A stretch of DNA of 64,000 bases from Chloroflexota bacterium (GTDB taxonomy: Bacteria > Chloroflexota > Dormibacteria > Dormibacterales > Dormibacteraceae): NCBI GenBank assembly GCA_005880695.1, contig VBGR01000036.1, forward strand, positions 1-64,000, written 5' to 3'. Positions 22,249-27,360 of the stretch are shown one piece after another; within the stretch, counting starts at the first letter, position 1, and every line of letters starts with the position of its first letter. The notes beneath the pieces were generated by a model that saw only the letters and a program-made list of their open reading frames with translations, made no database searches and had not been told where the DNA came from. A program made the translations under genes and the position numbers.

Positions 22249-22881
22249 TTGAACCATGTAGCCGGAGCGTTCGGCTACCCCTTTCGTAAAGGGGCGGCCG
22301 GCGCGTGGGCCGTCGGCCTCCCGCTCGTGCTCCTTTTGCCTGTCACGTTCCTTCTGGTGTTGGGCTACTGGGTGGCCGCCGTCCGCGCTTCCGCGACCGA
22401 TCCCGAGGCTGGGCCGCCTCCCTGGCGCCAGCTGGGGCAGATCCTCCGGGACGGATTCTGGATCTCCTTGGTTCTGGCTCTGCTCACCCTTCCCTTCGCT
22501 CTTGCCTTGCCGGCGCTGGTAACGGCTTACACCGGCCTCACGGCGCGGCTCGAATCGGACGCCTTCCTCTACCGGTCCTACGCGCTGGTCCTGGCCGTGG
22601 CTACGCTGGCGCTGCCCTGGGGGATACTCCTGCTCGTGCTGCTGCCCGCTGCCACGATCCGGTACGCGCGCAGCAACGCCGCCCGGGACCTCTTCGACTT
22701 CCCAGCGGCGATCGGTCTCGTCCGCCGCCGCTTTGCGATCTGGAACCTGGTAGGGGTCGCCGTCGTGACGGCCTGGGCGGTCGGCCTGGCCGGCCTCGGC
22801 CTGCTCTGCGTCGGGATCGTGCCGGGCGTGTTCTTTGCAATGCTGGTCTCCGCGCACGCCACCGCCGCGCTCGATGGCTAA
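22249..22881 (+). CDS. DUF4013-family membrane protein
   Basis: A 210-aa protein with about five hydrophobic helices. The AFGYPFRKGAAGAW start and the glycine/proline-rich helices fit DUF4013, a family of uncharacterised membrane proteins common in archaea and Chloroflexota-like bacteria. It starts with TTG 22249, only 15 bp from the divergent NIF3 start. Its end overlaps pxpB by 8 nt, so it is the first gene of the pxpB-pxpC operon. Confidence 0.65.
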   Translation: MNHVAGAFGYPFRKGAAGAWAVGLPLVLLLPVTFLLVLGYWVAAVRASATDPEAGPPPWRQLGQILRDGFWISLVLALLTLPFALALPALVTAYTGLTARLESDAFLYRSYALVLAVATLALPWGILLLVLLPAATIRYARSNAARDLFDFPAAIGLVRRRFAIWNLVGVAVVTAWAVGLAGLGLLCVGIVPGVFFAMLVSAHATAALDG

Positions 22882-23506
22882 ACCCCGGATCCAGCCCCTG
22901 GGCGACGCCGCACTGCTGGTCCAGCTCGGCTCTCGGATCGACACCGCCCTCAATTCCCGTGCGCACGCCGTGGCCGCCGCACTGCGCAAGCGTTCCGGGA
23001 TCCGCGACGCGGCCGCCGGCTACGCCTCGGTCACCGTCTACTACGATCCCGAACGGACCAGCTACCGCAGTCTCGCGGCCGCCATCCCCAAGCTCGTCGC
23101 TCACCCCGGCCGGGTGGGACCGAGCGGCCGCCTGCACCGCATCCCGGTCACCTACGACGGTCCCGACCTGGCTGAGGCGGCGGACCAGCTGGATCTCACA
23201 CCTGAGCAGGTGATCCGACTGCACGGTCAGCCCATCTACCGAGTCTTCATGGTCGGTTTCGTTCCTGGCTTTGCCTACCTCGGTCCGCTGCCGCCGGCGC
23301 TCCACCTGCCGCGCCGCCGGGTCCCGCGGACGCTGGTGCCGGCCGGCTCGGTCGCCATCGCAGGCGCGCAGACCGGGATCTACCCCCTGCCAAGTCCTGG
23401 CGGCTGGCATCTCCTCGGCCGCACCCCGATGCGGATGTTCCTGCCGGACTCCGACCCACCGAGCCTCCTGCGCCCCGGCGACCGCGTGCGGTTCTTCCCG
23501 GCCTGA
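22874..23506 (+). CDS. pxpB: 5-oxoprolinase subunit B
   Basis: PxpB (formerly KipI-like) works with PxpA and PxpC in ATP-dependent cleavage of 5-oxoproline to glutamate. It has 210 aa from ATG 22874 (PRIQPLGDAALLVQLGSRID). The cyclophilin-like C-terminal domain has VGFVPGFAYLGPLP and PRRRVPRTLVPAGSVAIAG, the family hallmarks. It is followed by pxpC after 3 bp, while pxpA lies on the opposite strand at 25.7 kb. Confidence 0.9.
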   Translation: MAKPRIQPLGDAALLVQLGSRIDTALNSRAHAVAAALRKRSGIRDAAAGYASVTVYYDPERTSYRSLAAAIPKLVAHPGRVGPSGRLHRIPVTYDGPDLAEAADQLDLTPEQVIRLHGQPIYRVFMVGFVPGFAYLGPLPPALHLPRRRVPRTLVPAGSVAIAGAQTGIYPLPSPGGWHLLGRTPMRMFLPDSDPPSLLRPGDRVRFFPA

Positions 23507-23509
23507 GGC

Positions 23510-24442
23510 TTGGAGCCGGTCCTCCGGGTCGACAAGCCCGGCCTCCAGACGACCATCCAGGACCTTGGCCGCGGCGGCCACCGCGCGTACGGCGTCCCTC
23601 CGGGTGGCGCCATGGACCGCTTCGCTCTGGCAGCCGCCAACCGGCTCGTCGGCAACCCGGATGGCGCCGCCTGTCTGGAATGTGCTGTCAGCGGCCCGTC
23701 TCTGGTGGCGCTGCAGAGCTGCCTGATCGCGGTCACGGGGGCAGATTTCGGAGCCACCGTCAACGGCGAGGAGATGCCCCTGTGGACGGGCGTCTTCCTG
23801 CCGGCAGGCGAGCGCCTCGCCTTCGCGGGTCGTCGGGCCGGAGCCCGCTGCTACATCGCGGTCGCGGGTGGGTTCGGCGGCGACCGCTGGCTCGGCTCGC
23901 TCTCGACCTATCAGCTGGTCGGCCGCGGCGGCCTCGGCGGCCGGCCGCTGAAGGCCGGCGACCTGCTGCAACCGGCGGCGGCGCCGCCCCATCCTCAAGT
24001 GGCAGGCCGGCACCTGGCCGAGCCCCTGCGACCGGCTTACGCCAGCGCGCCCCGCCTGGCTGCCGTCCGGGGACCCCACTTCGACCGCCTGTCGCGGCCG
24101 GCCCGGACCGTCCTCTGGAAGACCGAGTTCGAGGTCGGCAAGGACTCCGACCGGATGGGCTACCGCCTGGAAGGTCAGACGCTAGAGGCAGGCGGCCGCG
24201 ACATCCTCTCCATCGGCCTTGCCATGGGGGCGGTGCAGCTGCCGCCCGGCGGGAACCCGATCCTCTTGATGGCCGACCATCAGTCGGCCGGCGGCTATCC
24301 CGTCATTCTGGGACTGGGTCGCGCGGATATCGTGCTCGCAGCCCAGCTGCTGCCAGGCGAGCACGTGAGCTTCACCGAGACGTCGGTCCTGCGAGCCCAG
24401 GACGCCTGGCGGGGCCTGCGGGCGGGGCTGGAGACGCTCTGA
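23510..24442 (+). CDS. pxpC: 5-oxoprolinase subunit C
   Basis: Biotin-dependent-carboxyltransferase-like subunit of 5-oxoprolinase, 310 aa from TTG 23510. Signatures are VDKPGLQTTIQDLGRGGHRAYGV with PPGGAMDRFALAAAN near the start, SDRMGYRLEG, and LMADHQSAGGYPVIL toward the end. It pairs with the adjacent pxpB. It ends 10 bp before the convergent unknown gene. Confidence 0.9.
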   Translation: MEPVLRVDKPGLQTTIQDLGRGGHRAYGVPPGGAMDRFALAAANRLVGNPDGAACLECAVSGPSLVALQSCLIAVTGADFGATVNGEEMPLWTGVFLPAGERLAFAGRRAGARCYIAVAGGFGGDRWLGSLSTYQLVGRGGLGGRPLKAGDLLQPAAAPPHPQVAGRHLAEPLRPAYASAPRLAAVRGPHFDRLSRPARTVLWKTEFEVGKDSDRMGYRLEGQTLEAGGRDILSIGLAMGAVQLPPGGNPILLMADHQSAGGYPVILGLGRADIVLAAQLLPGEHVSFTETSVLRAQDAWRGLRAGLETL

Positions 24443-24451
24443 AACGACCGG

Positions 24452-25213
24452 CTACTGGCCACTGGTCAGGATCGCGCTGGTGACGCGGAGCACGATGCCG
24501 AGGCCCCAAAGCGTGACCGCAGCTCCCAGGGCGATCGCACGGGGTGTCGACGACCAGCGGGCGCCGCGCAGGACGAAGAGGATGCAGGCGATTGGACAGA
24601 AGAGGAGCAGCACGAAGTAGATGACAGCGCTGATCGGTCCCGTCTGCCAGGACGCGGCCGGAGCCTCCGCGGTCGGCGAGTAGCGATAGTTCGAACGCAT
24701 CGCCGTCCAGTCGATCTCGGGTGCTGAACCCCGCGGCGGCGCCGCGGCGGCGGCGGCAACGGCCGCGGCGCTGGCCCTCCGCTCGATGCGAATCCGCTCC
24801 GCCTCGCGCGGATCGAGCCAGCTGGGTAGGTCGTCTTGAGCAGGGTCCGGCGCGGATGAGGGTGGCGAGAGAGGCGCGAGCGGCGCGGCAGGCGGCAGCA
24901 CCGCTTCCAGCGGGTTGGGCGGCGGAGAGATCGACGGCGCGCCGGGACCGATGGGGCCTGGCGGCGGAGCTGGCGCCGCGGCAGCGATCTCGGGCGCGGG
25001 CGGAACCCAGCCGGCGCTGACCGGCAGAGGAGGGGCCGGCGGCTGTCCGAAGGCGCCGGCCGGCATGGGAGAGCGGAGCCCGCCGAACGGCTGCCAGCCC
25101 CGGCCGTCATAGCGGAAGTGCCCGTCTGGGGAGATGGCGTCGTTCCAGCTGAGACCGTCCCAAAACCAGAGGCCATCAGCCGACCACCCTACGATCGGCG
25201 GATTGGAGCCCAC
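24452..25213 (-). CDS. Proline-rich protein with N-terminal Trp-Asp-Gly motifs and C-terminal membrane helices
   Basis: A 253-aa protein of unknown function. The first ~45 residues hold two W-x-W/W-D-G-x-W motifs (WFWDGLSWND, YDGRGWQPFG), reminiscent of the short DUF2510-like modules at the start of actinobacterial membrane proteins. Residues ~50-150 are a Pro/Ala-rich linker. Two hydrophobic helices follow near residues 185-210 and 220-245. The layout suggests a membrane protein with a cytoplasmic ligand- or protein-binding tip. It lies 35 bp downstream of the peroxiredoxin gene, on the same strand. Confidence 0.55.
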   Translation of the reverse strand: MGSNPPIVGWSADGLWFWDGLSWNDAISPDGHFRYDGRGWQPFGGLRSPMPAGAFGQPPAPPLPVSAGWVPPAPEIAAAAPAPPPGPIGPGAPSISPPPNPLEAVLPPAAPLAPLSPPSSAPDPAQDDLPSWLDPREAERIRIERRASAAAVAAAAAAPPRGSAPEIDWTAMRSNYRYSPTAEAPAASWQTGPISAVIYFVLLLFCPIACILFVLRGARWSSTPRAIALGAAVTLWGLGIVLRVTSAILTSGQ

Positions 25214-25248
25214 GGTCGCGGGAAGTTACATCTTCGCGGGCGGTCTGT

Positions 25249-25737
25249 CTAGGAAGTCGTTGCCAGGGCGACCTTGCTGGCCTCCGCCAGCACCTCCGAG
25301 ATGTCCGGCAGCCGCTTCTCCGGAGAGGTCACCCAGCGCCAGCGGACGACCCGGTCGGAGTCGAGGATGAAGATGGTGCGGCGAGCCACGCCGTCGTAGC
25401 CCTGGAGGTCGGTGCGCCGGACGCCCCAGTCGGTCACCGTCTTGCGCTCGAAGTCGGCGATCAGCTCGAAGGGCAGCTCGCCGAGCTCACGGGCGAACGC
25501 CTGGTGCGAGTAAACGGAGTCGACACTGATGCCGAAGACGCCGATTCCGGCCTTTTCGAACTCCGCGTACCTTTCCCGAAACTCGGTAAGTTCGTTCCTT
25601 CAACCGGGCGTGAAATCGAGCACGTAAAAGGCGACCACCGTCGCCCGGTGCAGCTTTACCGCGTCCGAGAGCTTGACTGGAGCTCCGCCCGTGCCCGGCA
25701 GCTCGAAATCCGGCGCCAGGTCCCCAACTTCGACCAC
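25249..25737 (-). CDS. Peroxiredoxin (AhpC/TSA, Bcp/AhpE-like) with an in-frame UGA as probable selenocysteine
   Basis: Reduces hydroperoxides. Read through one TGA, the frame from GTG 25737 gives 162 aa matching a full peroxiredoxin: GDLAPDFELPGTGG, VVAFYVLDFTPG, then TGA, then RNELTEFRERYAEF, GVFGISVDS, LPFELIADF and RTIFILDSDRVVRW. The TGA (25602-25600, residue 46) sits exactly where the peroxidatic cysteine of the FTPGC motif belongs, and the frame after it is fully conserved. The rest of the protein has no cysteine, so it would be a 1-Sec type. A possible SECIS hairpin follows. It could instead be a recent nonsense mutation, but loss of exactly this codon with everything else intact favours selenocysteine. 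It lies 5 bp downstream of pxpA. Confidence 0.82.
25558..25599 (-). promoter_or_regulatory. Possible bacterial SECIS element after the peroxiredoxin UGA
   Basis: Counting from the base after UGA, the RNA can form CCGA(14-17)-GUU-UCGG(21-24). Alternatively it forms a longer hairpin, GAACU-UACC (7-15) with GGUA (29-32) and AGUUC (38-42). The loop G at +18 followed by U is within the distance seen for bacterial SECIS elements. This was folded by eye only. Confidence 0.45.
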
Positions 25738-25742
25738 GTCGT

Positions 25743-26429
25743 TCAGGGTAGCTTCAAGGGGCCCCGGGCGACGCCGGCGGCCGCCAGGGCGGCGCCGATC
25801 GACTCTGCAAGCAGCGCCGAGCCAGGCGAGTCGCCGTGCAGGCAGATGGTGTCGAAGTCACCCGAGCGCGCGAGCCGTAACGCCTGCGCAGCCGCAGCCT
25901 CCGGAGCCAGCAGGGCCCCGGGCTCCGAGCGAGCTTTGAGCTTGCCGCCCGGCAGGTAGGCGCGGTCGGCGAAGCCTTCCCGATAGCCGGGCACGCCCTG
26001 CGCGTTGGCAGCCTCGAGGATGGCAAACCCAGGCTGGCCGACGACGCCGACTCCGTGCGCGGCCGCCGCACGGACCAGGGCTGCGGCGGCGGACGGATCG
26101 GACTGGCAGCGGTGGTAGAGCGCCCCGTGCGCTTTCACGTAGGCAATCGGGACGACGGCGGCCAGGGCCGCCACCTGGAAACGGACCAGATCCTCGATGT
26201 CCTGCACTGAGGCGCCGGTCTCTTCCCGGCCGTACCGGGGCCGGTCGTCGTAGCCGGGGTGCGCGCCAACCTCCACACCCAGCCTGAGGCAGAGCCGGGC
26301 GACCCGCACTGTCTCGGTCAGCGAACCGGCGTGCACACCACAGGAAACGTTCGCGCTATCGATATGGGGCAGGATTTGCTCGTCCTGGCCGGCGCTTTCG
26401 GCCAGATCGGAGCAGAGATTGATCCTCAG
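25743..26429 (-). CDS. pxpA: 5-oxoprolinase subunit A (LamB/YcsF family, CTG start proposed)
   Basis: Catalytic partner of PxpB/PxpC, 228 aa. The family N-terminus (M-K/R-I-D/N-L, then D-L-x-E) is encoded as RINLCSDLAESAGQDE directly after a CTG at 26429-26427. That CTG overlaps the TGA of the upstream mogA/moaB as CTGA, with GGAGA about 9 nt upstream. The first ordinary start (26336) would delete the conserved metal- and substrate-site region SANVSCGVHAG. GVEVGAHPGYDDRPRYGR and VKAHGALYH are also typical. It is slightly shorter than the usual ~245 aa. Confidence 0.88.
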   Translation of the reverse strand: MRINLCSDLAESAGQDEQILPHIDSANVSCGVHAGSLTETVRVARLCLRLGVEVGAHPGYDDRPRYGREETGASVQDIEDLVRFQVAALAAVVPIAYVKAHGALYHRCQSDPSAAAALVRAAAAHGVGVVGQPGFAILEAANAQGVPGYREGFADRAYLPGGKLKARSEPGALLAPEAAAAQALRLARSGDFDTICLHGDSPGSALLAESIGAALAAAGVARGPLKLP

Positions 26430-26902
26430 TGGCCCGTCTCTCCGGCCAGCTGATCGAGGGCGTGGCCGACGGCGGGCAGAACCGCGCGCAGGGACTCGGT
26501 CGCCCCGTTCACGCTGCCGGGCAGGTTGATCACCAGCGCACCGCTCCGCACACCGGCGACGCCCCGCGAAAGGATCGCCAGGGGCGTCGACGCCCGGCCG
26601 GCCCGCCGCATCTCCTCGGCCAGTCCGGGGACCTCATAGTCGAGCACCGGAAGGGTCGCCTGTGGCGTTCGGTCCCGGGCGGCCAGCCCGGTGCCGCCCG
26701 TGGTCACTATCAAGTCGGCTGCCGCGTCCTTCAGGATGGCCGTGATCTCGTCCGGCTCGTCCGGAACCAGGTGCTCGGCGATGACGTCGAGCCCGGCGTC
26801 CTGGAGCAACCGGACGAGGGCCGGCCCGCTGCGGTCTTCAGCCGTGCCGGCAGCGACCCGGTCGCTGACGGTGATCACGCAGGCGGTTCTTGGCGTCGCC
26901 AG
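26426..26902 (-). CDS. Molybdopterin adenylyltransferase, MogA/MoaB family (CTG start proposed)
   Basis: Binds or adenylylates molybdopterin in molybdenum cofactor synthesis. It has about 158 aa. VITVSDRVAAGTAEDRSGPAL, VTTGGTGLAARDRTP and INLPGSVNGATESL are the family blocks. GTG 26878 has no ribosome-binding site and would cut the first beta-strand (RTACVITVSDR). CTG 26902 has AGGAG 6 nt upstream and yields a complete N-terminus. The 3' part of moaC overlaps its start. Confidence 0.85.
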   Translation of the reverse strand: MATPRTACVITVSDRVAAGTAEDRSGPALVRLLQDAGLDVIAEHLVPDEPDEITAILKDAAADLIVTTGGTGLAARDRTPQATLPVLDYEVPGLAEEMRRAGRASTPLAILSRGVAGVRSGALVINLPGSVNGATESLRAVLPAVGHALDQLAGETGH

Positions 26903-27360
26903 CTTCCACTCCTGCCGCCCGACTTCTCGAGCAGCCGGACGGACTCCAGGTAGGCGAACCGATCGACTCCCTTCACCATATCGATCACTGTCAGCCCGGC
27001 CACCGCGGCGGCGGTCAAAGCCTCCATCTCAACTCCGGTCCGGCCGCTGACCCGCGCCCGGGCCAGGATCCTGACCCGGTCGGCTTTCGTCTCGAAGTCG
27101 AGGTCCACCGAAGTGAGCGGCAGCGGGTGGCAGAGCGGGATCAGCTCCGAAGTCCGCTTCGCAGCCATGATGCCCGCTACGCGAGCTACGGCCAGCGCGT
27201 CCCCTTTCGCGAGGGTGGAGTCGCGCAGCGCCTGGACTGACTCCGGGCCGAGCCGGACCACACACTCGGCGAGCGCTTCGCGGCGGGTCTCTGGTTTGTC
27301 GCCCACGTCGACCATGCGGGCTGCGCCCCGTTCGTCCAGGTGGGTCAGGCGGGAGGGCAT
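26875..27360 (-). CDS. moaC: Cyclic pyranopterin monophosphate synthase
   Basis: Second step of molybdenum cofactor synthesis. It has 161 aa. Diagnostic blocks are the start through MVDVGDKPETRREA, IMAAKRTSELIPLCHPLPL, GVEMEALTAAAVAGLTVIDMVK and RLLEKSGGRSG. It is the first gene of a run moaC-mogA/moaB-pxpA-peroxiredoxin. TAGATA on this strand sits 6 nt before the ATG and is shared with the divergent HAD gene. Confidence 0.92.
   Translation of the reverse strand: MPSRLTHLDERGAARMVDVGDKPETRREALAECVVRLGPESVQALRDSTLAKGDALAVARVAGIMAAKRTSELIPLCHPLPLTSVDLDFETKADRVRILARARVSGRTGVEMEALTAAAVAGLTVIDMVKGVDRFAYLESVRLLEKSGGRSGSWRRQEPPA

Follow-up and report, generated by a model that had tools for sequence, protein, structure and literature searches.

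The question raised by this locus is whether one TGA codon, located where a peroxiredoxin should carry its peroxidatic cysteine, ends the gene or is decoded as selenocysteine (Sec). The locus lies in a stretch of 64,000 nucleotides (hereafter the window), which is located in contig 52 of the 2.82 Mb draft genome of a Ca. Dormibacteraeota soil MAG; the nearest named relative at the locus is Ca. Dormibacteraeota MAG L092 (95%), with soil 'Chloroflexi' and Dormiibacterota MAGs coming next. Once this TGA is counted as a residue, the minus strand contains a single open frame (Table 1), in which no other TGA occurs and whose GTG start matches the start in orthologues. The peroxiredoxin match spans the frame from end to end, on both sides of the TGA. 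Pfam AhpC-TSA (PF00578) covers residues 4-133 (4e-34, 117.6 bits versus a cut-off of 26), and the best sequence match in PDB, Aeropyrum PrxQ (2cx3/4gqc; 4e-30, aligned to residues 2-157), places its peroxidatic Cys on residue 46, in the context FYVLDFTPG-U-RNELTEF. The AlphaFold model computed here with nine family members as input has a mean pLDDT of 93, and its closest fold neighbours are Sulfolobus Bcp4, a Burkholderia AhpC/TSA protein and A. pernix PrxQ. The sequence-only reading, which had described a complete peroxiredoxin interrupted by one TGA exactly at the peroxidatic Cys and conserved beyond it, is thus borne out by the frame and by the Pfam and PDB matches. The segment T43-P-G-U46 corresponds to the TxxU motif with an in-frame UGA at the peroxidatic position, for which Cys homologues exist. 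The gene very probably encodes a PrxQ/Bcp-like peroxiredoxin with Sec as the peroxidatic residue, its UGA being decoded with the help of SelB and a downstream hairpin, and the comparative evidence given below supports the earlier interpretation as a selenoprotein.

The class of Sec peroxiredoxins (COG1225, TxxU) has been on record since 2001-2005, so that the window's gene is an addition to an already known kind. This class was presented as established in the sequence-only reading, in agreement with the 43 COG1225 genes reported from the Sargasso Sea data set (PMC1088965) and with the Prx selenoprotein family (COG1225/PF00578, TxxU) listed in the family table of PMC13188914, where the biochemical prototype cited is the Sec peroxiredoxin of Eubacterium acidaminophilum. 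The term "unrecognised selenoprotein" therefore holds for the window's copy and not for the class. The predicted short product was found as well: in the open reading frame list made with translation table 11 the gene is represented only by 25249-25437 (62 aa), which makes it an example of a gene that standard calling would shorten to 62 residues. None of the NCBIfam 20.0 models reaches its own cut-off with the window's peroxiredoxin (PrxU, NF040737, scores 58.4 bits versus a cut-off of 270), so automatic annotation could well truncate the gene.

Table 1. Features of the putative Sec peroxiredoxin locus and other genes of the same genome with an internal TGA.
Feature	Position	Strand	Description
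Sec peroxiredoxin gene (predicted)	25249..25737	minus	GTG start 25737, TAG stop 25251-25249, 162 aa, Sec46; from homology and model
UGA predicted to be read as Sec	25600..25602	minus	peroxidatic residue 46; internal TGA in 56/56 close orthologues
Bacterial SECIS-like hairpin	25573..25589	minus	stem +11 to +16 with +22 to +27; loop AGUUU +17 to +21 (25583-25579)
selD (L018)	G000:C39:19684-20592		in-frame TGA at catalytic position, SHGAG-U-ACK
FdhA (L174)	C75:45224-47089		TGA in NRT-U-HAPS or ARV-U-HGPT (listed jointly with L175)
FdhA (L175)	C2:56764-57558		TGA in NRT-U-HAPS or ARV-U-HGPT (listed jointly with L174)

Decoding of UGA as Sec depends on a dedicated machinery, and the genes that the earlier reading had proposed to look for, i.e., selA, selB, selC and selD, are all present in the same genome above their family cut-offs: selA (499 bits, cut-off 268), the adjoining selB (348 bits, cut-off 242), selD (364 bits, cut-off 125) and a tRNA-Sec whose anticodon is UCA (67.5 bits, gathering threshold 47). 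The objection that the genome might have no selenocysteine machinery thus falls away. Two formate dehydrogenase alpha subunits (FdhA) of this genome contain a TGA in the U-H-x-P context, which we take to be the usual Sec context of FdhA, so that at least four genes of the host (peroxiredoxin, selD and the two fdhA genes) appear, from their sequences, to use UGA internally. Searching the host genome for a further Sec peroxiredoxin gave just two weak matches, both lacking a TGA, and a screen of the window for other TGA-recoded genes, based on codon bias to either side of a TGA, yielded no candidate recognised as a known protein.

In the mechanism considered here, SelB carrying Sec-tRNA-Sec(UCA) would bind a hairpin located just past the UGA, and the codon would then be decoded as Sec rather than as termination. 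The same-family hairpin, GACCGAGUUUCGGUC, starts about 12 nt past the UGA, and its AGUUU loop begins 16 nt after it. In the published bSECIS model a G occupies one of the first two loop positions, at 16 to 37 nt from the UGA, and the MFE is at or below -7.5 kcal/mol (PMC13188914). The window's hairpin agrees with this model in the distance to the UGA and in its G at +18 (25582), which is the second loop base and is invariant in the window's family; its energy, about -4.6 to -6.4 kcal/mol in local folds, falls short of the published value, which is reached by the family consensus and most relatives. The stem of the window's copy contains an A.G mismatch common to the window's genus, and its energy shows no excess over synonymous shuffles (z 0.04), hence an argument from energy alone was rejected for this copy. 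The sequence-only reading had suggested a hairpin with loop G at +18 and had proposed to fold the region after the UGA: the AGUUU loop and its G are real, while the stem of the window's own copy is mismatched and energetically weak. The case for a SECIS element is therefore one of comparison with relatives and not of the window's copy taken singly. In both Dormibacteria families that carry the gene, synonymous-codon identity is highest near the UGA and along the hairpin. The covariation analysis computed here took in 22 distinct sequences, an actinomycetote and a proteobacterial MAG among them: 93% of cells are paired and four of the six hairpin pairs show two-sided change, a result equalled in 0 to 1 of 500 shuffles, whereas slid versions of the hairpin pair in just 25-52% of cells. 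Different hairpins occupy roughly this position in the second Dormibacteria family, in Bacillota and in Acidobacteriota. Those of the second family (L062-L077; loop CUUGC) have, in their simplest fold, no G in the first two loop positions, unlike the published model, and those of Bacillota (L138-L167) have yet another sequence.

A lone TGA in an otherwise intact gene, if seen once, would look the same whether it was a selenocysteine codon or a nonsense mutation of a Cys codon, arising in a pseudogene or by sequencing error. Its distribution decides between the two. Among 100 relatives there are 56 close orthologues, the window's own included (40 from the same family and 16 from a second family of the class Dormibacteria), and a TGA lies inside all 56, at one and the same column in each whose sequence was read; no Cys form was seen among them. 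Since the TGA is conserved in 56 genomes, with the protein constrained on both sides and with extra synonymous constraint on the codons after it, a nonsense mutation or an error can be dismissed as practically negligible. Nor is the codon TGC or TGT, named earlier as the observation that would speak against Sec, when judged from these independent relatives, which show TGA; in the alignment of Cys and Sec homologues, which had been proposed as a check, the TGA column is Cys in the outer relatives. An open frame under recoding leaves by itself the identity of the residue undefined, and TGA might stand for some other amino acid (code 4 or 25) or be read through by a near-cognate tRNA. This explanation is very improbable, as TGA ends 19 of the 36 long open reading frames of the window and so is also a normal stop there, in many orthologues TGA is the gene's own stop as well as an internal codon, homologues have Cys at the position, and the genome encodes a complete Sec system with tRNA-Sec(UCA). 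The TGA form is also accompanied by selA above cut-off in 49 of the 56 genomes; of the seven others, five reach no more than 80% completeness, one has only a selA fragment at a contig end, and one, G019, is 95% complete and has the TGA form with no full selA match, which is probably an assembly gap. The fifteen Dormibacteria genomes outside both families that are devoid of any selA match gave no TGA-bearing hit among the matches listed.

If Sec is inserted at residue 46, it remains to be asked what the protein does with it. Val39 (within the region 25600-25629 of the window) stands in place of the Pro of the universal PxxxT/SxxC motif and a resolving Cys is absent, both of which might indicate that the Sec protein acts mainly as a general thiol oxidoreductase or redox sensor. 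We consider this role unlikely: Thr43, three residues before the Sec, is kept (Ser in the second family), Arg120 is invariant in A1, and the fold is matched best by proteins of the Bcp/PrxQ type. With Thr43 and Arg120 in place, the protein is most naturally read as reducing peroxide at Sec46; Sec insertion itself, like the peroxidase activity, the reductant and the physiological role, is inferred. Sec46, helped by Thr43 and the conserved Arg, would attack the peroxide and become a selenenic acid, with water or an alcohol released. Cysteine is entirely absent from the window's protein (relatives have few, at no common place), thus neither an internal selenosulfide nor a resolving residue is available and an outside thiol should act as reductant; the selenenic acid would be reduced by thioredoxin or a low-molecular-weight thiol, as in a 1-Sec peroxidase. 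By both sequence and fold the predicted peroxidase is closest to PrxQ/Bcp of Aeropyrum pernix (4gqc/4gqf, 2cx3) and Sulfolobus Bcp4 (3hjp), and it differs from the former in the active site: the Aeropyrum enzyme has Cys as its peroxidatic residue, and 2cx3 contains a further Cys five residues on, where the window's protein has Thr.

The Pro of the longer PxxxTxxU motif is described as highly conserved, yet the family table gives TxxU as the defining motif (PMC13188914). At this position Val was found in all 59 Sec rows from Dormibacterota, Acidobacteriota, Actinomycetota and Pseudomonadota, while Pro is kept in the 19 other Sec rows (Bacillota and one from Anaerolineae) and in all 12 Cys rows. 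At the DNA level 36 of 400 genomes of the phylum contain the pattern FYV(L/F)DF(T/S)xx with TGA after it, and one contains it with TGC or TGT (G435, a pattern match to a candidate peroxiredoxin); the reversed control pattern was found in none of the 400. These counts suggest that the changed pocket belongs with Sec. A further step would be a Sec-dependent subfamily, in which Sec goes together with the Pro-to-Val active site, all Cys were lost in the window's lineage, and a 1-Sec peroxidase unworkable with Cys is kept throughout two soil Dormibacteria families; we put this forward tentatively, as a possible and still rather doubtful extension.

A wider scan covered 84,980 species genomes. Among its 80 best relatives, Sec forms come from Bacillota (Fictibacillus, Evansella and others), Acidobacteriota, Actinomycetota, Pseudomonadota and Anaerolineae MAGs; Herpetosiphon, Planctomycetota and haloarchaea contribute Cys forms, which take outer positions. 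Nearly all Sec forms group together in the tree, with at least two Sec/Cys changes overall, and the deep order is unsure because several branches are long. The proteins of Fictibacillus, Evansella and their relatives (L138-L167) have Sec at the same position and belong to the same Sec part of the tree, but they keep the motif Pro, some have a C-terminal Cys, and their hairpin sequence is different. Within the window's family most loci have moaC, moaB and pxpA to one side of the gene and pxpC and pxpB, in convergent orientation, to the other; each neighbour was found in 32 to 34 loci, and this shared setting suggests vertical inheritance there. The window itself shows this neighbourhood at 22835-27360, with the 5-oxoprolinase genes pxpB and pxpC on the plus strand and pxpA, moaB and moaC on the minus strand.

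Compared with the known Sec peroxiredoxins (COG1225/PF00578), the window's protein is alike in its peroxiredoxin fold, T-x-x-U motif, predicted Sec in place of the peroxidatic Cys and SECIS-like element downstream of the UGA; it differs in its low PrxU score, Val for Pro, zero Cys and soil Dormibacterota host. A literature search for selenocysteine, selenoproteins or selenium in Dormibacteraeota, Dormibacterota or Dormibacter, with most subscription journals outside its coverage, found no report, and the deep-Sep paper (PMC12013277) mentions neither Chloroflexi nor Prx. Sec decoding in Dormibacterota, the Val-for-Pro active site and the Cys-free window protein may be new. By this reading Dormibacterota, uncultured and generally described as aerobic soil bacteria, would join the lineages that decode UGA as selenocysteine. 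Selenoproteins are rarely retained by aerobic bacteria (PMC13188914), and, if the tentative subfamily is real, a Sec-adapted 1-Sec peroxidase has been kept across two soil Dormibacteria families despite this rarity. The Val-for-Pro site, found almost only with Sec, offers a direct test of the co-evolution of chalcogen and pocket. A second Sec family, AhpC-TSA-like and with the motif FYRGDWUPYCNGQL, which the peroxiredoxin search did not find in the window's own genome, occurs in the same-family Dormibacteria relatives L086, L088, and L089.
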